The position numbers and the translations under genes are program-made. The notes beneath the pieces were generated by a model. That model was not told the DNA's origin, searched no databases, and saw only the letters and a list, made by a program, of their open reading frames with translations. 64,000 nt of DNA from Paracyclopina nana (taxonomy: Eukaryota > Arthropoda > Copepoda > Cyclopoida > Cyclopettidae): contig JAGUCH010000006.1 in the NCBI GenBank assembly GCA_019096065.1, positions 4,112,001-4,176,000 of the forward strand. The letters are read 5' to 3'. Positions 5,673 through 30,075 of this stretch are shown in pieces; positions within the stretch are counted from its first letter, which is position 1, and each line of letters starts with the position of its first letter.

Positions 5673-7668
5673 TTAGCCATAGGTGCGGCTCTGATGCGAA
5701 ATCGCCGACGACCACAAATTTGTCGAGTCTTTGAAGTCCTCAGAGGACATGGAGTTGTGCAGCGCAGACAAGTTCCTGGGAACACAAATCACTTCGAAGT
5801 CCTCAGGAGTGACTGTGACAGCCGCAACGCCTCTCAGGCTGGGAAGGGGAGTATCTTTGGGGCTTTGAAGATCGAAGCAGTGGAGAAGAGTGGTGAAGAA
5901 GAGGAAAAACTCCTTTTCTGCCAGCTGGTCGCCCAGGCACATTCGCTGGCCAATGCCGAAGGGGAGGAAGTTCTCGGGCTTTTGGACTGCCGAGCCATCG
6001 GCAGTTAAGAACCTTTCAGGCCGCAGCTCTTCAGGCTTGTCCCAGACTTCGGGGTCCATGTGAACAGCGTGCAAAAGGGGAATGACATGGGCGTTTTGTG
6101 GGATGACGTATCCCTCGAATTCAACGGCTCTGCAAATATGAAAAAAAATACTTATAAAAATGCTGCTCCGTTACGCGTGGCATTTTTCATGACTGCATAG
6201 CTCAATTCGCGCGCGCGCGCTGTAGCTATATTATAAATGGCAAAAATAATTGCGAAACAAGACACACGTACACAAAGGAAACTTGGCCGCGTGTATAATA
6301 TCAATACAAAGCTGCATTGCATGACTGCATTTTTCAAGTGCAACAAGTGCATAAAAGTGCAATTGCTGATCGCCTTGACGGTTATTAACCTATCCTGAAC
6401 GAGCGATTCGGGCGTTGAACTCACCTGTCAGTGGAGTGTGTGGTGCCCATGGGTACCACGGACGACCTCCTCATGATCTCGTACATGGTGGCCTTAGTGT
6501 AGGTCAACTGGCTCATATCCTTCACCGTGGGCAGCCTGTTGGGCCCCACTTTGGCGTCGAGCTCGGCCTGAACCTTGCGCATCACCTCGGGGTAGTGGAG
6601 CATGTAAACGATCGACCAAAGCACAGAGGTCTTGAGAGTCTCGACGCCCGCAGAAAAGAGATCCAGGATGATTTGCTCGAGCTGGACCTCGGGGTCGAAT
6701 CCGTGGAAAATGTCCTCGGTGGCGACCTCGTCGTTGTTGTTGTTGCTCTGCCTCATCTTCTCGATGGTGATCAGATACGAGTCGATGAGGTCTCGGGGGT
6801 TGGTGGGGTCCAGGTCCTCCTTGTGGGAGTCGATGATTTTCTTGACAAACTCGAGCATCTCCGCTCGGTTGGACCTGAGCTGCTTGAGGGCCTTGGAGAC
6901 TCCGGGCATGTACTTGAGGAAGGGCAAGTAGATCATGGCTCCGGTCAGAGTGAAGAGCCGGAATCCCTCGTCGAAGATGTGCATGAAGTGCTGGAACTCT
7001 GAGCTCGTGTGCTCGAACCTCGTGTTCATGATCATGGAGCAGATCACGTTGGAGACGGCGCAGTTCACGAGAGCCGCGGGGTTGACGGGCACACTGTTGT
7101 GCTCTCTGTAGAGAGTGTCCAACAGCTGGACGGCCTCGTGCTCAACCCTCTTTTCAATTTGGCTCATACCAGGCCCCCAATGCCTCATGCCAAGCTTCTG
7201 GTTCAACAGGTATCGCCTTTGGGACTTCCACAAGTCTCCCTCAGCATTGATCACTCCTACATTGGACAAAACGAGGGTACGTGAAAAAACGGCCTTTGCG
7301 AAAGGAGGGCAAAAAAGGGCCTTACCGTAGCCGCCGAGAAGGTCAGTGAGTTCTGTTTTGGGCCTTGCGGTGAAGTCGCGTGACATGAAAGCTTTCTTGA
7401 TGAGTTTGTGGTCGCTGATGACTACGATGGTCTCGCTGCCCATCTTGAGGCTGAGCACTTTGCCGAAGGTCTTGACGTGGTCCATGAGGAACAGGTGAAA
7501 CTCTTTCTTGATGCTGAAGAGCACCCCGATGACGGGGAAGCCCCAGGGCCCGGGGGGCAGGCGCTTAATTCGCGAATATTGTCTTACGAGAAAGTAGACG
7601 AGCAGGGCTATTGAGGCCACGCTCATGGTTGACGTGAGGTCGGTAAACAGGTGCTTTAGGATGGCCAT
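5673..7668 (-). CDS. CYP18A1: Cytochrome P450 CYP18A1 (ecdysteroid 26-hydroxylase)
   Basis: In insects this microsomal P450 inactivates ecdysteroids by C-26 hydroxylation. Exons 7668-7326, 7256-6425 and 6129-5673 are joined by introns of 69 and 295 bp and give 543 residues, a normal length. Features in order: an N-terminal membrane helix (~14-30), the hinge LPPGPWGFPVIG, the I-helix AGVET (~317-321), the K-helix ExxR (E~374, R~377), and the heme loop FGIGQRMCLG with C456 as thiolate ligand. CYP18A1-specific stretches include LRSNRAEM, DPTNPRDLIDSYL, MRRSSVVPMGTTHS and VHMDP. All catalytic motifs are intact. The 69-bp intron is multiple-of-three and stop-free, so the unspliced frame stays open, but family alignment shows it must be removed. 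The gene faces GPATCH2-like tail to tail and has 16 kb of non-coding DNA upstream. Confidence 0.93.
6208..6220. repeat. Short (CG)n run in CYP18A1 intron 2
   Basis: An alternating C/G tract of about 13 nt lies in the 295-bp intron of CYP18A1, in an otherwise AT-rich setting. Confidence 0.8.
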
Positions 7669-7742
7669 TTTGTGTTATTGGTGAGATATCTTGTCGTTGG
7701 TAAGGCTATCGCTTGAATGAGTTGAATTTCGACCCCAACTTT

Positions 7743-19853: not shown

Positions 19854-20472
19854 GGTATCACCCTCCAGGCCTCAAGCGTCGAAAAGAAAATTCAGTTAAG
19901 CCTCAAAAAGTCAAGTCCATAGAGCAAATAAAAACCTAATTCAAGCAAGGAGCATACTGAAAAGCCTTAAGCCATTTAAGCCTGATTGTGCTGATTTTTG
20001 TTTTTTGGAACTAGGCTGGAATCTTAAAATGCCTTTACAGCCTCAAAATGCAGCAAATACAGAATTTTGAATTTGTAAGCCCTCCTCAGCTTCTTATCTC
20101 AAAAAAGCCGAAACAGCCTCAAAAACCCAGACATCCTGAAAAACCAAAACATCATCATAAATCTATAATTTCATTTGTGTACAAAAATCTCCAAAGCCTC
20201 AAAAATCTATAAAGCCCAAAAAGCCCACACAGAATCTTTACAAGCCTCAATAAGCTTTAAAATACTCAAAAACCATTCACAGCCTTAAATATCCTACTAA
20301 GCCTCAAAAAACCCATATATCTTTAAAAAAAACTACACAAATTCATATGGGCGGTCTCATATTCTTCAATCGGGCAGTGTAGGTGGACCCACCTTCCCAC
20401 CTACCTAGGGTAGGTAGGTGAGGGTAGGCAGGTGGGTAGGTGGGTAACCTAATAGCTTGGTGAACCAGTTAG

Positions 20473-20646
20473 TAGCTTGTTCTCATAAACATTTCTAAAA
20501 GGTAAGCAAGGCACTTTGCGCGCTTATATCTCAGCATCTACACGTCCGATTGGAACCAATCGGCTCAATACTTACTGAGCTATGAGCTTCCAAAGTGCCT
20601 TGCTTTGCTTACCGCCTGCCTTACTGAGTTTTATGAGAACAAGCTA
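20473..20646. repeat. Inner hairpin A of the compound foldback element
   Basis: Arms TAGCTTGTTCTCATAAA and their complement enclose a second inverted block, CAAGGCACTTTG, and a central GATTGGAACCAATC palindrome. The right arm resembles the element at 14060-14283. Confidence 0.8.
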
Positions 20647-20649
20647 GTA

Positions 20650-20761
20650 TGCAGGCAAGTTAAGTCAATTTGACTCAGAAATCACGAGTGGACATTTTGT
20701 GTAGAAGCAGCTTTTTGTTATGCTTTGATGTGCTGAGTCAAATTGACTTAACTTGCCTGCA
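20650..20761. repeat. Inner hairpin B of the compound foldback element
   Basis: Inverted arms of about 29 bp begin TGCAGGCAAGTTAAGTCAA and run through the complementary TTGACTTAACTTGCCTGCA, with a loop of roughly 55 nt. Confidence 0.85.
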
Positions 20762-21272
20762 CTAACTGGTTCACTAAGCTACTAGGTTACCCACCTACCC
20801 ACCTGCCTACCCTCACCTACCTACCCTAGGTAGGTGGGAAGGTGAGTTCACCTACCTTGCCCAATTGAAGAATATGAGACCGCCCTATAAACCCATAAGC
20901 TTTTATAAGTTTATCAGTGTACAAAAGCCTACACATCCTCAAAAACCTATTAAGCCTAAAAAGCCTAAACAGCCTGTTTACAAGCCCCTATAAGCTTTAA
21001 AGTCTCAAAAAGCATACACAGCCTCAAAAAGCATACACAACCTTAAAAACCTACATGCCTCAAAAACCTAGACATCCTATAAAAACCTTGACATCCTATA
21101 AAAACCTTGACATCCTATAAAAACCTACATAGCCTCAAAAACCTAGACATCCCATAAAAACCTACGCAGCCTCAAAAACCTAGCCATAAAAAAGCCTCCA
21201 CAACATAAAATTGCTGAACTACTTAAGCTAAAAAAGCTGAACAGCTTCTATAGACACATAAGCCCTAATGTC

Positions 21273-21565
21273 CTGTTCATGTACGCCCCAAACTCTTTAG
21301 GAAAATGCACGAAAAACACCTCAAGGAAAGGAGAAAAATTGTCTTATGACAAGCGCCAGCTGATATTAAGAAAATCAGATCGACTTTAAGCCAACTTGTT
21401 TGTTTTGAGATATGCTGAAAACCATGCGACAAAATAGCAAAAATTACCATAAAAAACGCTGCTCGACCCCAAGCTTAACTCGTCGAGTGGCAGTCGGCAA
21501 CAGATTCACTTTTCCTTAAGACAATTTTTTCCATACCTTAAGGCATTCTTAATACATGAACAGGG
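21273..21565 (-). mobile_element. MITE-like element, about 293 bp (family of 17430-17761)
   Basis: Terminal inverted repeats CCTGTTCATGTA and TACATGAACAGG bound sequence that matches 17430-17761 in reverse. It is inserted in the A/C-rich array; GCTGAACAGCTTCTATAG words lie on both sides. The target duplication could not be fixed because the flanks are repetitive. It has no coding capacity. Confidence 0.75.
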
Positions 21566-22260
21566 CATAAAGAGCTGAACAGCTTCTATAGGTACTTAAG
21601 ACTAAAAAAACTGAATAGCCTCTATATGTGCATAAGCCTCAAAAAGCTTAACTTCCCCTGCAGGTACATAAGCCTAAAAAAGCTGAACAGTCTGCATTAG
21701 TACAGCAGCCTCAAAAAACCTACACATCCCCTAAAAGTCAACGCAATAAATAGCATGAAAAAGTCTATGCATCCAATTAATGCCTACAAAAGGCATGAAA
21801 AACCCTTCAGGCCTCTAAAAGCCTAAACAACCTATCCAAGACTACACGGCTTCAAAAGCCTTAAAAACCTCACAAAGCCTACACGGCCTCAAAAACCTTA
21901 CGCAGCCTTTAAGAAGCTTTAAGAGCCTCAAAATGCCTACACAGCCTCAAAATTCCTGCACAGCCTCAAAAAACCTACACAGCCCTCAAAAAGCCTTCAC
22001 TGCCTCAAAAAGCCTACACAGCCTCAAAAAGTCTACACATCCTAAAAAATTTACAAAGCTACAAAAAGTCTACGCAGCCACGACAAGCCTACACTTCATC
22101 AAAAAACATTCAGAGCCTAAAAAAACGTTAAACTAGTTTAAAGGCCTCAAAAAGCTTCCATATCCTCATAATTTTATTCGCATCTACAGAGTCTGTGCAC
22201 ATTCAAAAGTCTGTTCAGCCTCATCCACACACCCTCATAAAATCCAAGACGCAAAAATCT

Positions 22261-24011
22261 GCTCTCCTTAAAGAGTGTATATAGGCCTTAGAGACAAAAA
22301 ACATCAAGCATACAGGATTAAAAGCCAAGTTCCTACGCAGCATGAAAACTCCAAACATGCTTCGAAGGAAATCTCATGGAATGCTAACCTGTGTAATCAC
22401 GACATTTAGCCCCTTCAAAGATAGATTTTGCTAAGCTCAAAATTCAATCATTTGATGATATAAAACTCATACTACAATTTTTGTGTTAAGGTATAATTGC
22501 TTGAATGCTGCATAGATGATATAATTTCAAACCAAGATAGACCACCCAGAATCACATTTTTACTGGTGTTTAGTTTGCTTTCAATTGACTTCATTGTGTT
22601 TTGATCAAACGCAAAACTGGATGAAGCAGATTTTAAGTACACATCTTTTTTTGAGGGGTGATTGCGGTTGGCTGACTTTGTATAAACTCATGTTTTCCAA
22701 GAATTTAATTTAGCTGCTTCTAGCCAGTTTCTTCTTGGGGGCTAATAAATGAAGGCCACTCTCAAACATGAGCAAAAGATGCCCAAAAGTGGAAACTAAG
22801 GATGACAAACAATTCAAGCATGCACTTTTGTCACACAATCAATACATATTTTGAGCTGCTCAGAAGGCAAATCTCGAGAAAAGCTTGGGCTTTTCTATTT
22901 CTTTTTCATCAATCAAATTTCTGATTTTGACCAGGACTAACAAGATCATATCTAGACATTTTGTAACCCGTTGGGACTAGCAATAATAATATTTTATTCA
23001 ATTGTCTGGCCAAGGTTCCATCCGTCACTTTGATGATTGTTGTATAGTTACCGTTACACTCATTAGAGAAAAAATGCTGCGTGCCCACGCCAAAATGAGC
23101 TCAGAAAATGCTCGGTTAGAAGATGCATAAGTAATGGTAAGTCATCCAGAAAAACGGATGCTTAGGAATAATAGCTGTCCAGATTGTCACACTTTCTTGA
23201 GGTCTCGAAAACTCCATGAAGCATTTTCACAACATAAACTTGAAATTCACAGCTCATCAACAATAAGTTGATCAAGAAATTCATGAGGAAAAATGATATA
23301 CAAAAGGCAAAGATGATTTTTGCCTCAACATAAAAATTCTAGATTTTACCAGCAATAAGAATTTATGGGCACACAGTAAAATTAAAAAAAACAACTAGAC
23401 ATGTATAAATGCAATCCCAAAGCTTAATAAAAAAGAGTAAAATTACCTTTTTATCTCGATGAAACGACGCAAAGCAAAAAGTGCATTTTCTTGCAAGGAA
23501 TTCTTCATTGATAATGATGACAACTTTCAAGGCTCAACACTTCAACTTACTGATAAAATAAGCTGCTGCAGTACGGGTGCTGATTGCTATTTGCTGAGCT
23601 AATCTCAGCTGACATCAAAGTTTTTTACTGAGCTAGTGAATTAGAATCTGGAGATTCGAGAAAATAAAGTTAAGGCACTAAGAAATTCAAAAAGCACATT
23701 TTATCAATGCTCTGAAAATGTAAATTTGAAGCATGCACAAATCAAAAATAAATCCCCAAGTTTATAACCTTGAATTTTCAATCTTCAAAAGAAAAAGTAG
23801 AGAAAGAACTCTCGGATTTCAGTTTTTTACAAGCCTTGACTCATCTCGATCTGTCAGCACCAATTGTAAACAAATAAAACAGGCGAAAATTAGGAATCCA
23901 CCCAAATTCGTTTTTTATTAACAAAACCACTGACATTCCGTGTATTTAGACTCTAGAGTAAGTTGAATTATAAAAAATAATGAATTCAAGACCGAAAAGT
24001 ATTTTTAGCTC
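22261..24011. other. Gene-free DNA upstream of NIF3L1
   Basis: About 1.75 kb of AT-rich DNA with no supported gene. It should include the NIF3L1 promoter, but I see no distinctive element. Confidence 0.45.
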
Positions 24012-27000
24012 ATGTTTCCAGGTCTGATTTTTACTACCAGGAGTTTAACAATATCAAGATCCGGCTTAGGCATGGAGCTCAAAGAGGTTGTAGCAAGACT
24101 CGAAAAATTTGCTCCCACATCACTGGCTGGAGACTGGGACAACGTTGGCCTCTTAATTGAGCCATCAGGGCCCAAAATTATCAAGAAGGTCATGTTGACA
24201 AACGACCTCACTGAACCAGTGATGGAAGAATGCCTTCATTCCGGAGCTGACATGATCTTGTCTTACCATCCTCCCATTTTCAGACCATTGAAAAGGATCA
24301 CCATGAATAATTGGAAGGTAAACCAAATTCCAACTTTTTTTTACTTCTTCCTTCTAACTTTTTCCTTTTTTTCAGGAAAGAATCGTTGCAAAGTGCCTAG
24401 AGAATCGCATTGCATTGTATTCTCCACACACTGCCTATGATGCAGTCCAGAATGGAGTCAATGATTGGCTCATTTCACCTTTTGGTAAGCTATAGCTACA
24501 TTTATTCATTACGAACGGTTCTTGCTCGCATTTGACCTAGAGGAAAGTCATATGTGAGGATATCACGACGCGTCGGGACGCGTCGTATACATAAATTCAA
24601 ATGGTATGAGTCGTACAAGTGATCATGCGCCCAGCGAGAGGGTCATATAATAACGTCCGCTTCATCTTTTCAAAAGGGATTTGGCGTGAAGGTCTTTGGA
24701 TGCTCAATAATAATGCTGCTTGATTTCAGTCTCACTTTCAAAAATGGAAGTTACGGATGTGATCCAAGTTGTCTCTAGCTCAGTGTTCATTTTGATAAGT
24801 GCAGCGATATTTTTAGCACGCAAGCGGAAATGCAAAGAGCCGAAAAAGATTGCTGTAAAATATTCGGACTTTGTCAACTTTCTGGTTGTCTGTGATTGCT
24901 TAGTGGAGGTGCTAATAATTATTCAGAGATGCAGCTTTTTGCCTGAAGCTAAAAATGTCTTGGCTGGTCCAATTTTGGTCCTTGTCTCAAGATTCTTGAT
25001 TCTGGCGTTTCAGAATCAGCAGTGCAATGTTATGGCCTTGATCCTTTTTGGCATTGATTTTAGTGTCGGATTGTTTGATATCAGTCACAATGCAAGCATT
25101 GCCGCTGCCAACTTTTGGATCGGGTCACTTAGGCTTCTGTGTAATGGCTGCCTATTTATTAGTCTGATTCCTCTGTGCCTAAAAAGAAGTCACGTGGTGC
25201 AAGAAAAGTCTACTGATGTCAGCTCTAAATTCAAGTATGATCACAACAACTCGAGTCTTTTGTCCAAGTTGACATTTTCGTGGGTGCTACCTCTGCTGCT
25301 TCACGGCTATAAATCCCCCATTGATGTTGAGATACTCGAAAAAGTCACAATTGAGGAAAACAGCTTGAAATTCTCAGAAAAGCTCAAGTCGATGATCAGT
25401 GATAGCCTTGGAAAAAGCCTGTTTTGGCCTTGTGTGAAATTGAACAGTTATGTGCTAATAATTGGGGGAGTGTTTAGGCTTTTTGCAGACGTTTTCAGCC
25501 TAGGATGTGCGCTGTCAATAAAGTGGATTGTCAGCTCCTTCAATGCCACTTCTTCAAATGATGAAAATGGGGAAAGCTCATATAGCTTGGATGAGTTTTT
25601 TGCTAATTCTTACGTGGTATCCTTCTTGATACTATTATGCGGACTCCTTCAGGCCATTTTCTCCCAAGGGACTTCTCAATTTTCAACAATAGCTGGAATT
25701 CGAGCCAAAAATGCAGTCTCTGTTTTGCTTTACGAGAAAGCATTGAAGCTTCCTGTAAGGGTCAAAAGCATCTCCAATGAAGAAGATGACAACGAAAGCA
25801 ACATTGATGTCGGCCACATAACCAACCTGTTGACTGAAGATGTTTCCAACCTGAAAGAAGCATTTTGGAACCTGCACTATGCATGGGCTCTGCCTCTAAA
25901 AATGCTCGTCATCATTGTCTTGATTTACATGAAAATTGGCATATCTGGTGCCTTGGGATCCTTCATGGGAATCATCACAATTATTCCCCTTCAGCTTGTC
26001 GTTGGAAAAGCCATGTCTGACAACAACAAGAATATCCAGAAGCACAGTGACAGCCGAATTCTTTTATCCAGTGAAGTCATCCAGGGCATGAAATCCGTCA
26101 AACTCAATTGCCTAGAGCAACTCAAGTATGACCAGATTAAAAGAGCAAGAAAAGAAGAGTTGACATGCCTGAAGAAAGATTCTTGGCTATGGTCAGCCAT
26201 GACTTTCCTTGCTAGTATTTCAACATTGCTTGTCTCAGCACTTATTATTGGCCTTCATGCCTTGTTCGAATCTGAAAGCCTCAAGACCGAGGATATTTTC
26301 ACAATTTTAGCTCTGCTCAACCAACTGACAGTTTGCTTGTCTGTTTTCCCTGTGACACTGCCAGTGTACGTAAAGGCTGTTTTGAGTATCGGGAGACTCA
26401 GGTTGTTTTTCAGCCAGGAAGAAGTGGTGAAAAATATTTTGTCTAATTCTTTGGAGGAGAAGAACGATCAGGTTGCAATCAAAATGTCTAAAGCAACTTT
26501 CAATTGGCCCGCTTCGAATGTTGTGGCTCTCAAGAATGTTGATGTAGACATAAAGAAAGGATCACTCACAATGCTAACGGGAGAAAGTTCTGCTTTTTTC
26601 CTCGCCTTGATCAATGAGTTGGAACTGAAGCAAGGCCATTTTGCTTGGAATTTTGATAACGAATCTATTGCATTTGTTGGCCAAAGACCTTGGATCAGCA
26701 ATGGTACAATCAAAGATAACATTCTGAATGGGAGACCTTGCAAAGAAAAGCGCTACAAAAAGGTGTTGATGGCTTGCGATCTGGACGCGGATATCAACAT
26801 TTTGCCTCTGAAAGATGAAACTGAAGTGGGAGAAGATGGCGTTTTACTCTCCGGAGGCCAACGACAACGCATAGCTATTGCAAGATGCCTTTATTCCAAG
26901 GCTGCAGTTTCCATTTTAGACCTGCCTTTCAGTGCTCTGGACTCCAATTTGGCTTTGCATATTTTTGAGCAAGGCATCCTCAAAATCTTGTTGAAGAGGA

Positions 27001-30000
27001 AACGAACAGTTATTATGCAATCTCACAGGAGGGACTTTTTGCCGAAAGCAAGCTGGATTATTCACTTTAATGAGCTGGGTGAAATAGCTGCTCAGGGCTC
27101 GTTTCCAACTTTGAGAAAAGAGAGGCCCGAATTGTTTAAAGTCAACGAAATTGATTCTAATTTTGGCAAGACGGCAAAAGAGAGGTGGACTTTGCTGAAG
27201 AATGTGACAAAATTGAGCTTGACTCGGTCCTCGGCCAAAAATATGATGATGGCTAAAAGTATGAGCAAGCGCAGCATTAAAAGGACCAACTTCAAGAGGC
27301 TTGAAAGCACTGCTCACCTGGGTTTCTGCCACAACCTCCTAGTCCATACTCCAATCATGGAGGAAGAGCACCATGATCGTGTCTTGATGAATCGTTGCAA
27401 AAGCATTCATCAGCCTAGAAAGCAGGGCTCCAATGATTTGACCAAAATTGCGATACAAAACGACCATCTCAAAAAGAAAATCGAGTCAAAGCCAAGTCTT
27501 CGAGCTCAAGATTCCCTGACAGGCTTCCAGTTTGCCCACAAATTCGTGGCAAGAATGACTTCCAATTCATCTCAGCTCTCTGGAGTGTCAGGCTTCAGTG
27601 ATGATCAAGACGATGAGTTTGACCACGAAGGTTTGATGATGCATCACGATGCATCGTGGGACGAAGAAGAGCGGGAAAAGGGGGAAATTAAGAGTGCTGT
27701 CACCAAGGCTTACTTTTCTGCCGGAGGATTTAAGAATTTCCTCTGTTTCCTCCTTCTTTCCATGGGATTTCAAGCGGCCAAAATCGGTAGTGACTTTTTG
27801 CTCCAATCTCCGGAAGAAGGATTTTTGCTCAACTACTTCATATTGGCAACGTTGGCCATATTTTGTTCAGTGTTGGCCAACTATTTCGGCCAGAACCTAG
27901 GGGCTCGTGCCAGAAAACAGCTGCACAAAGTGCTCATATCGCATATTTTCAAAGTGAAGCCTTACTTATTCGATTTACTTCCCCCTGGAAGGTTTATGGC
28001 AAGACTAGCTCAAGACATGTTCATCATCGACCAGAAATTGCCATCTTGTGTGCAAAGATTGGCTTTGGTGTCCTTGATTTGCTCTGGCGCCTTGATAGTG
28101 AATGCCATTCAGTCGCCCGTTTTTCTGGCCTTTGTCTGCCCTTTGATAGCCGTTTATTGGGCTATCCAGCATTTTTATAGAAGATCAGCGAGGGAACTCC
28201 AACGCATTGAAAGCTCAACCAGATCGCCTTTCCTGTCTCAATTATCCAATTCCATTTGTTGTCTCGTCACTTTGAGAGCGTTCAAGGAGGAGAAACGACT
28301 GACTGGCCAATTTTGCAACAAGCTAGATGCCAACACGACTGCTCTACTCCTTGTCCAGTCTGGTTCAAGATGGCTTGGTGTGTCATTGGACATAGTGGGA
28401 TCTGTGATCGTATTCGCCTCAGTCGTGTCTTGCCTAATCAGCCAAGAACGAGACACATTTGGCCTCGCTTTGAATTACAGCCTCCTGGTGCCAATTTACT
28501 TGGCATGGGTCATCAAATTCATGACTGAATTAGAAAGTTGCTTGAATGCAGTCGAGCGGGTACTGGAGTATACAGAGCTGGATTTTGAAGATGTTGACAA
28601 CAATTTAGCTGAAGAGGGGTTGGAAAATTGTGAGATTGTGTTTTATGCTGTGTCGTTGTCTCATGGAGACATCATGAGGCCGATATTGACCAACTTGAAC
28701 CTCGTCATTCCTCAAGGTCAAATTGTGGCTTTGGTGGGGAGATCCGGATCCGGAAAATCTACCATTATTGAGTCCCTATCTGCCATGTCTTGCATTGTTT
28801 CCGGAGACATAACGATTGGTGGAAGACGCGTGTGTGAAATTCCCCTGAGCAATCTAAGGCGTACCGTGAGAGTTGTGCCGCAAGAGGTGGCTCATTTTGT
28901 TGGGTCGATCAAAGATGCTCTTGATCCCTATAATGAACACACCGATGAAGACATAAAAACAGTTGCTAGTGAGTTTGCAGAATTGCCTGACCTCCAATAT
29001 CCAATTGAAGCCTTTGGTGATAACTTGGCCAAGTCAATGAAGCAGGAACTTGCCATTGTTCAGGCTGTGCTTAGTCGCCCACGAGTACTTGTCTTGGACG
29101 AAGCCACGTCAGTGATAGGAAATGACAAGAGCTTAATGAGCGCCTTGTTCAAGTATTGTAAATCCCAGAAAGTTACCATGATAGCAGCAGTGCACAGACT
29201 TTCCAATATTTCTGATTTCGACCGAGTGCTTGTTGTCGGTGATGGACGCATTCTTGAGGATGGCAATCCCAAGGATCTACTTAAAAAGCCTATGGGCTTC
29301 CTTTCAACTTTTTACCGAAACTCTGCCCTGTGAACTGTAAAGCCTTTTCTAATTCTTATTCGCGACGTGTAAATTTGGCTCACGCTTGTGTTTTTTGTTC
29401 AATTTTCAGGCCAGGGCAAGGTGACCAACATATTGCAAAATTATGAAACAGAGCAAAACTTCCTGGTGACGTGTGATCCTAACCCTGTCATTCCGTTCAA
29501 GACGAATGCTCAAGATGATCAAGTTCGTTTCACCTGTGAGAAAAGGAAACTGGATTCAATGATTAATGAACTGTCTAACGTTAACCTGATTAAACTTGAA
29601 AAGAAAGCTATTCCCTTGACCGGCCCTGGGCGATTGATGGTGCTTGAACAGACCTTGTCACTGTCACAAGCGCTTGAAACAATAAAAAAGCACCTTGGGC
29701 TACAACATGTCAGGCTCGCTATTGCAAATAATGCTACATTAGGTGAAATATTCTTGATTACATTATTATGAATTAATTATTATCATTAGATTATTGCTTA
29801 GATTCTGAGGTGACATCTATTGGAGTTTGTGCTGGATCTGGAGCAAGCGTTTTATCTGGATGCAAAGCTAACCTATGGATCACTGGAGAAATGTCCCATC
29901 ATGAGGTTTTGGACGCAGTTCACCAGGGAACTTCAGTGATTCTATGCGAGCATTCGAACACGGAAAGAGGCTTTTTGAAAGAGTTTGCGCCCAAGCTGTC

Positions 30001-30067
30001 TGCAATGTTGGACAACATCGAGGTTCTTGTTTCAGTCCAGGATAGAGATCCATTACAAATTCTGTAA
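24012..30067 (+). CDS. NIF3L1: NIF3-like protein 1, with a gene nested in its second intron
   Basis: This is a NIF3/DUF34 family protein with a conserved metal-binding fold and no settled reaction. Exons 24012-24317, 24376-24484, 29410-29742 and 29802-30067 join in phase to give 337 residues; human NIF3L1 is of similar length. Diagnostic stretches are DWDNVGLL, TNDLTEPVMEE, SYHPPIFRPLKRIT, YSPHTAYDAVQNGVNDWL, VCAGSGASVL, TGEMSHHE and CEHSNTERGFL. The HPP, HTA and SHH histidines expected to bind metal are present. The small introns are 58 and 59 bp, but the second is 4,925 bp and holds the whole SUR-like gene. The N-terminus has a basic, acid-free stretch that could target mitochondria. A TTTCCAG right after the first ATG could also be an acceptor, in which case translation would start at 24072. 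Confidence 0.93.
24485..24743 (+). promoter_or_regulatory. NIF3L1 intron segment upstream of the nested SUR-like gene
   Basis: These 259 bp between NIF3L1 exon 2 and the nested ATG must hold any private promoter. A 10-bp inverted repeat, ACGACGCGTC and GACGCGTCGT with a 2-nt spacer, lies at 24565-24586. An AT-rich TATAATAA lies near 24645, about 100 nt before the ATG. TGATTTCAG, a plausible splice acceptor, ends at 24729. Confidence 0.45.
24744..29333 (+). CDS. SUR-like ABCC transporter (ABCC8/9 type), intronless and nested
   Basis: A single uninterrupted frame of 1,529 residues from the ATG at 24744 (good context, AAAATGG). It has ABCC full-transporter architecture: an N-terminal TMD0, TMD1, NBD1 (~590-790), a long charged linker (~820-980), TMD2 and NBD2 (~1300-1529). 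It resembles sulfonylurea receptors most: RYKKVLMACDLDADINILP, PFSALD, GILKILL..KRTVI and LPKASWII in NBD1; IDQKLPS and CLVTLRAF in TMD2. SURs regulate Kir6 potassium channels; that role is inferred. NBD1 keeps LSGGQ (702-706) and H761 but has no Walker A lysine (GESSAFF at ~613-619), and Walker B is LDL. NBD2 keeps Walker A GRSGSGKS (1332-1339), D1452, E1453 and H1484, but the signature is replaced by LAKSMKQE (~1428-1435). There is no AATAAA before NIF3L1 exon 3, 76 nt downstream of the stop. Confidence 0.88.
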   Translation: MEVTDVIQVVSSSVFILISAAIFLARKRKCKEPKKIAVKYSDFVNFLVVCDCLVEVLIIIQRCSFLPEAKNVLAGPILVLVSRFLILAFQNQQCNVMALILFGIDFSVGLFDISHNASIAAANFWIGSLRLLCNGCLFISLIPLCLKRSHVVQEKSTDVSSKFKYDHNNSSLLSKLTFSWVLPLLLHGYKSPIDVEILEKVTIEENSLKFSEKLKSMISDSLGKSLFWPCVKLNSYVLIIGGVFRLFADVFSLGCALSIKWIVSSFNATSSNDENGESSYSLDEFFANSYVVSFLILLCGLLQAIFSQGTSQFSTIAGIRAKNAVSVLLYEKALKLPVRVKSISNEEDDNESNIDVGHITNLLTEDVSNLKEAFWNLHYAWALPLKMLVIIVLIYMKIGISGALGSFMGIITIIPLQLVVGKAMSDNNKNIQKHSDSRILLSSEVIQGMKSVKLNCLEQLKYDQIKRARKEELTCLKKDSWLWSAMTFLASISTLLVSALIIGLHALFESESLKTEDIFTILALLNQLTVCLSVFPVTLPVYVKAVLSIGRLRLFFSQEEVVKNILSNSLEEKNDQVAIKMSKATFNWPASNVVALKNVDVDIKKGSLTMLTGESSAFFLALINELELKQGHFAWNFDNESIAFVGQRPWISNGTIKDNILNGRPCKEKRYKKVLMACDLDADINILPLKDETEVGEDGVLLSGGQRQRIAIARCLYSKAAVSILDLPFSALDSNLALHIFEQGILKILLKRKRTVIMQSHRRDFLPKASWIIHFNELGEIAAQGSFPTLRKERPELFKVNEIDSNFGKTAKERWTLLKNVTKLSLTRSSAKNMMMAKSMSKRSIKRTNFKRLESTAHLGFCHNLLVHTPIMEEEHHDRVLMNRCKSIHQPRKQGSNDLTKIAIQNDHLKKKIESKPSLRAQDSLTGFQFAHKFVARMTSNSSQLSGVSGFSDDQDDEFDHEGLMMHHDASWDEEEREKGEIKSAVTKAYFSAGGFKNFLCFLLLSMGFQAAKIGSDFLLQSPEEGFLLNYFILATLAIFCSVLANYFGQNLGARARKQLHKVLISHIFKVKPYLFDLLPPGRFMARLAQDMFIIDQKLPSCVQRLALVSLICSGALIVNAIQSPVFLAFVCPLIAVYWAIQHFYRRSARELQRIESSTRSPFLSQLSNSICCLVTLRAFKEEKRLTGQFCNKLDANTTALLLVQSGSRWLGVSLDIVGSVIVFASVVSCLISQERDTFGLALNYSLLVPIYLAWVIKFMTELESCLNAVERVLEYTELDFEDVDNNLAEEGLENCEIVFYAVSLSHGDIMRPILTNLNLVIPQGQIVALVGRSGSGKSTIIESLSAMSCIVSGDITIGGRRVCEIPLSNLRRTVRVVPQEVAHFVGSIKDALDPYNEHTDEDIKTVASEFAELPDLQYPIEAFGDNLAKSMKQELAIVQAVLSRPRVLVLDEATSVIGNDKSLMSALFKYCKSQKVTMIAAVHRLSNISDFDRVLVVGDGRILEDGNPKDLLKKPMGFLSTFYRNSAL

Positions 30068-30069
30068 AG

Positions 30070-30075
30070 AATAAA
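30070..30075 (+). terminator. Poly(A) signal AATAAA, NIF3L1
   Basis: AATAAA begins 2 nt after the NIF3L1 stop codon. It is also the first canonical signal downstream of the nested SUR-like gene. Confidence 0.65.

Follow-up and report, generated by a model that had tools for sequence, protein, structure and literature searches.

How does a complete transporter gene come to lie, without introns and on the same strand, within an intron of another gene, and what has become of it there? The question is raised by a stretch of 64,000 nucleotides of the copepod Paracyclopina nana (assembly GCA_019096065.1, contig JAGUCH010000006.1, positions 4,112,001 to 4,176,000 of the forward strand), hereafter the window, in which a SUR-like ABCC gene is nested in intron 2 of NIF3L1. 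All positions are counted from the first letter of the window. We lean towards reading this gene as a SUR that has long been stripped of its introns, probably as a retrogene which took the place of its parent, and that selection has kept. It is a well-defined nested gene, and both the nesting and the single-exon form belong to an already known kind of arrangement. According to PMC3786989, nested genes make up ~6% of Drosophila genes and frequently lie on the opposite strand. The specialist interest of the locus lies in the loss of ATP site 1 in a SUR-clade protein.

A single-exon ABCC gene inside NIF3L1

The host gene consists of four in-phase exons which together give a stop-free open reading frame (ORF) of 337 amino acids, separated by introns of 58, 4,925 and 59 bp:

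24012-24317, plus strand: NIF3L1 exon 1, coding; ATG at 24012, further in-frame ATG at 24072
24376-24484, plus strand: NIF3L1 exon 2, phase 1 at its end
24485-29409, plus strand: NIF3L1 intron 2, 4,925 bp; donor TTG/GTAAGC, acceptor TTTTCAG/GCC
29410-29742, plus strand: NIF3L1 exon 3; in-phase join
29802-30067, plus strand: NIF3L1 exon 4 with stop codon; in-phase join, NIF3 match

The joined protein matches the Pfam profile DUF34_NIF3 with its residues 21-333, covering positions 1-256 of 256 at 223 bits. When three single frames were tested against the NIF3 profile, those of exons 1 and 4 matched and that of exon 3 did not. Since the 92 Mb genome has three NIF3 matches, every one of them at this locus, NIF3L1 is single copy. 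The initial annotation had joined the exons in phase across the 4,925-bp intron, with 58 and 59 bp for the other two, and this is exact to the base.

Within intron 2, on the same strand, an ABCC frame runs from stop to stop over 24714-29333. From its ATG at 24744 it holds 1,529 codons with zero internal stops. Its domains, a first transmembrane domain (TMD0) and two pairs of transmembrane and nucleotide-binding domains (TMD and NBD), are given in order:

24744-29333, plus strand: SUR-like ABCC coding sequence, single exon, 1,529 amino acids; TMD0, then TMD1-NBD1-TMD2-NBD2

The entire coding sequence lies within one intron of NIF3L1, which makes it a nested gene, and it is intron-free, as the coding sequence of a retrogene should be. 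The same-strand, intronless nesting of a full stop-free frame, as first annotated, is thereby confirmed. At the composition of this frame, 1,529 stop-free random codons would arise with a chance of ~1e-40. Its codon usage correlates with that of five other genes at 0.77, while the two remaining forward frames reach 0.58 and 0.40. Pfam recognizes two ABC_membrane and two ABC_tran stretches, and hydropathy indicates five hydrophobic segments in residues 1-142, corresponding to TMD0. The protein therefore has the SUR architecture TMD0-TMD1-NBD1-TMD2-NBD2.

The structure was read from the assembly, and the long intron, or the nesting, might be an artefact of it. We consider this very improbable: the contigs are large (10 for 92 Mb), NIF3L1 and the 259 bp preceding the ABCC start codon are both single copy, and the splice sites at the two intron ends join NIF3L1 in phase into a full-length family match.

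SUR grouping and the altered motifs of ATP site 1

In what follows, P0001 is the nested SUR-like protein, P0002 is the MRP1-like protein of locus L050, and L-numbers denote ABC loci of the same genome. A tree of 17 rows was built on TMD1 and NBD1, containing P0001, 12 other ABCC loci of the genome, SUR2B, SUR1, MRP1 and MRP2 (both MRP rows NBD1 only). The partial ABCC locus L048, closer to P0002, was left out of this tree and of the motif table. P0001 groups with SUR1/SUR2, apart from the MRPs, with a support of 100/99. Approximately unbiased (AU) tests reject its grouping with L060 (p 0.0015), L051 (1.6e-6), L054 (4.2e-4) and the L050/L056/L059 set (3.7e-7). At SUR-diagnostic positions, where both SURs are identical and the sampled MRP rows different, P0001 carries the SUR residue in 24/109 and the MRP consensus in 16/109, while each of 14 control rows carries the SUR residue at 0-11 of 34-117 such positions (highest 11/113). 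The best whole-protein match in the PDB is SUR2B with 477 bits, versus 457 for the best MRP1 chain. For TMD1, SUR scores 110 bits versus 102 for YCF1 and 90 for MRP1, and for NBD1 the best matches are SUR, with 193 bits versus 157 for MRP2. A predicted model of 26436-27158 has the ABC NBD fold (mean predicted local distance difference test, pLDDT, of 90), and the first five Foldseek rows obtained with it are SUR. The MRP and CFTR family models of NCBIfam were also tried, and they match P0001 far below their cut-offs.

Several observations pull the other way. The C-terminal half of P0001 is slightly nearer MRP2/MRP1 (268/264 bits) than SUR2B (256), VIA-align of the NBD1 model is tied among SUR, MRP2 and CFTR chains, and SUR2B as query scores the MRP1-like P0002 higher (306 bits) than P0001 (276). 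The branch of P0001 is long (2.93) and, together with the affinity of the C-terminal half, this means that attraction could account for part of the SUR signal. Long ABCC proteins usually carry an extracellular N-terminal tail, which is missing here. A simple-pattern scan of 20000-24743 revealed no upstream N-terminal exon, which is weak evidence as 0.41 hits are expected by chance; the same pattern recovered a control, the first exon of P0002. The SUR-like identity proposed in the initial annotation thus stands on the tree, the diagnostic residues and the NBD1 matches, and less well for the C-terminal half.

SURs have been described in other arthropods, with one one-to-one orthologue of Drosophila SUR each in Daphnia and Tetranychus (PMC2680897, PMC3724490). 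According to PMC3724490, arthropod SURs lack the N-terminal SUR motif IPR000388. This is at odds with PMC2680897, where both PRINTS SUR motifs (PR01092/PR01093) are given as conserved in Daphnia.

The two NBDs differ in which of their motifs are preserved:

26442-27146, plus strand: NBD1; P-loop four residues short (TGE----SS), second acid of Walker B lost (LDL)
28686-29288, plus strand: NBD2; Walker A GRSGSGKST, Q-loop, Walker B VLVLDEATS and H-loop kept

NBD1 retains the Q-loop Gln, the LSGGQ signature, the D-loop (SALD) and the H-loop His. The degenerate elements of NBD2 are its signature (LAKSMKQ) and its D-loop, which has lost the Asp (VIGN). The motif table, an alignment of 13 loci (P0001 and 12 ABCC siblings of the genome), indicates how unusual these changes are. 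At the shortened Walker A of NBD1, GxxGxGK is present in 12/12 siblings, and at its Walker B, where P0001 has no second acid, DD is found in 12/12. The NBD2 signature, unrecognisable in P0001 (LAKSM), reads SVGQ or SVGE in 12/12, and the D-loop Asp of NBD2 is lost in P0001 alone and kept in 11/11 siblings with data. All elements of site 2 that were tested (GRSGSGKST, LVLDE, LSGGQ, SALD, Q-loop and H-loop) are kept. P0001 therefore possesses the consensus site 2 of SURs (Walker A2, Walker B2 with Glu, signature 1). It departs from the degenerate site 1 of SUR1/SUR2, which retains Walker A, in that its P-loop is four residues short.

A D-loop can be assigned to the site it faces, which for NBD2 is site 1. 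If counted in this way, all four altered motifs belong to composite site 1. PMC7756269 places the D-loops at the dimer centre. In human ABCC proteins site 1 is degenerate already (PMC7756269), so site 1 was to be expected as the side of loss; the deletion of the P-loop itself was not. Two points speak against a plain loss of site 1 in a working SUR. Site 1 of P0001 is partly intact, as the NBD1 Q-loop Gln and H-loop His remain. In addition, site 1 of SUR1 is reported to bind ATP, with an unsettled role and conflicting mutants (PMC4699857), and because of this normal binding a protein without site 1 may work unlike known SURs.

The P-loop deletion and the other motif losses might also mark a retrocopy on its way to becoming a pseudogene, in line with the four altered motif elements and the long branch. 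We find such decay improbable. Despite an old divergence, the 1,529 codons contain neither stop nor frameshift, codon usage is normal and NBD1 is predicted to fold. The losses are moreover confined to site 1, where random decay would hit both sites.

Since its altered motifs fall in composite site 1, P0001 would be a TMD0-containing ABCC protein that binds and hydrolyses nucleotide only at consensus site 2. Its role might be that of a nucleotide sensor or regulator with one site, comparable to the role of SURs for Kir channels. We infer this nucleotide handling, and any Kir partner, from the sequence. If true, P0001 would be a natural experiment on what the lost ATP site does, and a natural SUR relative without the site 1 P-loop that keeps its site 2 elements would separate the structural from the nucleotide-binding role of NBD1. 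Among the literature matches listed (titles and abstract starts), none describes a SUR that lacks the P-loop of NBD1 or one that is nested in NIF3L1, and no paper was found combining 'NIF3L1' with 'nested gene'.

The genome contains 11 Kir-family matches (PF01007), none of which shows signs of being a specific SUR partner. Two IRK matches lie ~1 kb apart (G000:C7:995656-997326) and are possible SUR partners.

Origin of the nested gene

Within the genome, the nearest paralogues of P0001 are ~30% identical over long stretches, with one 80-residue piece at 55%. The SUR2B search places P0002 and P0001 on top and all others lower, and for 12/12 modelled siblings the score with P0002 exceeds that with P0001 (L050 being P0002 itself). 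Searches with P0001 and SUR2B, in which the best candidates are scored, brought up no second SUR among the matches examined, although a very divergent one might have escaped them. Ten further ABC loci gave no outstanding SUR-like NBD. Six of these had a scoreable NBD and four had none; four of the six score higher with P0002 than with the SURs, L003 is tied (136 vs 136) and L013 is slightly nearer SUR (103 vs 95, both weak scores). Three small unplaced ABC matches, considered as a second SUR, look ABCB- or ABCA-type. P0001 is the only SUR-clade member found in the genome.

These results bear directly on the retrocopy suggested in the initial annotation, which also asked for a spliced parent. 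No living SUR parent turned up in the searches with P0001 or SUR2B and, as the nearest paralogues are only ~30% identical, P0001 is not a recent copy of one. What stands is the single exon in a foreign intron, which leaves a parent-replacing retrogene possible: a 4.6-kb single exon within the intron of another gene is the form that retroposition produces. Likewise, of the two explanations offered for the intact length, selection or a recent origin, the former is favoured because the divergence is old yet the frame intact. In such a history, a SUR mRNA would have been reverse-transcribed long ago and its cDNA inserted into the NIF3L1 intron. The spliced SUR parent would later have been lost, i.e. 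retrogene replacement, and the SUR-like copy would have been under purifying selection since its insertion. The locus is a candidate case of an ion-channel regulator replaced by its own retrogene.

The traces that a retroposition may leave do not help this reading. A comparison of the intron flanks for a target duplication gave a longest common word of 7 bp, which is at chance level (65% of shuffles), and in the 76 bp downstream of the ABCC stop, inspected for a poly(A) tract, the longest A run is 3. Looking for both had been proposed as a check and neither was found; as they are expected to erode with age, their absence fits an old insertion and proves nothing.

The premise of normally intron-rich ABCC genes carries little weight in this genome, where each of the 12 modelled sibling ABCC loci has 1-12 introns, which makes a single exon less odd than claimed. 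The MRP1-like L050 (L050:2457-7165, within G000:C2:12885800-12895700) is full-length and nearly intronless: a 32-codon exon 1 is followed by one 62-bp intron, read by eye, and then by a single 1,516-codon exon. L051 has two introns in its model. In the tree, 9/12 sibling loci (L050, L052, L053, L055-L059, L061) are nearest MRP1/MRP2 with weak inner support, which suggests a lineage expansion like that reported for Tetranychus.

A history without retroposition can also be drawn up. The SUR introns would have been lost in place through cDNA recombination, as seems to have happened in sibling ABCC genes, and the gene would have become nested by a local rearrangement. mRNA-mediated intron loss leaves the 5'-most intron surviving, and the intron-poor siblings include L050, with its one intron at the 5' end, and L051 with two. 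In-place loss followed by nesting is therefore a live rival to the retrogene. We nevertheless hold it to be rather unlikely, as it requires the removal of every intron and, separately, the nesting, whereas a single cDNA insertion accounts for both.

Expression on one strand and comparison with known systems

For both genes to be expressed, NIF3L1 has to be spliced across the nested gene, and the latter needs a start and an end of its own. The scoring matrix for splice sites was derived from 79 introns modelled in sibling genes. Among the 350 AG sites in 24400-29900, the host acceptor at 29409 scores highest, with 13.2 bits; the donor of host intron 2 is average, at the 37th percentile of the 79 modelled donors. 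Splicing over the 4.9 kb is therefore plausible, although no more than 6 of the 79 introns are >1 kb, the longest measuring 2.1 kb. The elements that might serve the nested gene are the following (UTR, untranslated region):

24485-24743, plus strand: gap between host donor and ABCC ATG, 259 bp; sole intronic room for a nested promoter or 5' UTR; genome match only to itself
24565-24586, no strand: 22-bp palindrome ACGACGCGTC-GG-GACGCGTCGT; one genomic place; possible cis element
29334-29409, plus strand: gap between ABCC stop and NIF3L1 exon 3, 76 bp; scanned for a poly(A) signal
30070-30075, plus strand: AATAAA just 3' of the NIF3L1 stop; likely poly(A) signal common to both genes

Around 24565-24586 there are CG-rich words that seldom occur in the 202 kb of DNA examined. 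The 10-mer ATAACGTCCG occurs at 24650 and 30245 of the window, upstream of the ABCC ATG and of the galactokinase start, with 0.1 occurrences expected in the 202 kb examined, and is a possible shared promoter word.

Neither AATAAA nor a one-mismatch variant is present in 29334-29409, so that the SUR-like and NIF3L1 mRNAs likely share their 3' end. Other AATAAA words are located at 29681 in exon 3 and at 25517 in the ABCC frame. In the simplest model, the SUR-like mRNA would start within the 259-bp gap ahead of its ATG and read through NIF3L1 exons 3-4 as its 3' UTR up to the poly(A) signal at 30070. NIF3L1 itself would be made by splicing across 4.9 kb, aided by the acceptor at 29409, which outscores all others in the interval. 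A weakness of this model is that promoter, shared 3' end and expression are all deduced from the genome.

Decoy introns within the ABCC ORF were considered as well. The best short GT-AG pair reaches 16.5 bits versus 15.4 (standard deviation, sd, 1.7) in 200 synonymous shuffles, so that avoidance of decoys is not seen as a depletion in the best pair. The number of GT-AG pairs of >=10 bits is 7 versus 14.5 (sd 4.7), and with 6% of shuffles as low this is suggestive only. At 26402-26456, a 55-bp GT-AG pair in the ABCC frame scores 16.5 bits, with a median of 16.7 for typical introns; its use would shift the frame.

The ABCC frame might instead be a large alternative exon, with NIF3L1 exons 1-2 spliced to an acceptor at 24729, yielding a fusion protein or a shared 5' leader as in ChAT/VAChT. 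This acceptor, TTGATTTCAG, lies 14 bp before the ABCC ATG, is of phase 1 and in frame with ABCC, and in ticks the shared first exon of ChAT/VAChT is known (PMC7524744). The site is however weak (4.4 bits, 15th percentile of the 79), 55/350 AG sites in 24400-29900 are equal or better, and a phase match arises by chance in one of three cases. We know of no link between NIF3L1 and SUR. A shared transcript of this kind has a slim chance, and separate starts with a common 3' end remain the preferred model. Some interference between the nested SUR-like gene and NIF3L1 would be expected, because tandem nested genes disturb their hosts through retention, exonization and early polyadenylation (PMC3192792, PMC13309782). 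The locus is therefore a compact test of two same-strand genes sharing transcription, the nested one having almost no terminator room.

Taken as a whole, we propose only tentatively, at somewhat short of even confidence, that a SUR-clade protein physically without nucleotide site 1 is maintained by selection, serves as a one-site nucleotide sensor and is expressed inside NIF3L1 with a shared 3' end.

Elsewhere in the window, an uninterrupted 417-codon frame at 6421-7674 (minus strand) matches part of the cytochrome P450 profile. Degenerate tandem repeats, CCTACACAGCCTCAAAAAG-like among others, occupy 20103-22126, in a stretch whose two strands differ strongly in composition (GC skew to -0.26, AT skew to +0.20). 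In the assembly as a whole, 80 matches to the cuticle domain Chitin_bind_4 indicate an arthropod, COX1 is absent, and an oribatid affinity found no support.

The locus can be set beside several known systems. The vertebrate SUR1/SUR2 (ABCC8/ABCC9) are the nearest tree rows and share TMD0, two half-transporters and a consensus site 2 with P0001; their own site 1 keeps Walker A, whereas the P-loop of P0001 is deleted. Yeast Pdr5, as described in PMC7756269, also combines a complete composite site with one in which several motifs, spread over the two NBDs, are altered. It is however a PDR pump in which Walker A is substituted only (Lys to Cys) and the site 1 H-loop is changed, as opposed to the deleted P-loop and kept H-loop His of P0001. 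For the origin, the amphioxus SYCP1 retrogene replacement (PMC5803294) is comparable: a single-coding-exon sole copy at an unrelated place, multi-exon in most animals, with the parent gone. In contrast, the P0001 gene is nested, and its multi-exon ancestry and its expression are presumed. Among nested genes, ChAT/VAChT, e.g. of Ixodes ticks (PMC7524744), similarly combines a one-exon transporter ORF with a host intron, and its shared exon 1 implies the same strand; the two genes share that exon and one pathway, while NIF3L1 and SUR have no supported shared 5' exon. Tandem nested genes such as mammalian H13/Mcts2 (PMC13309782, PMC3192792) likewise include a nested gene whose transcription can force early ends, retention and exonization, an interference that was measured there and is only predicted for NIF3L1 and its nested SUR.

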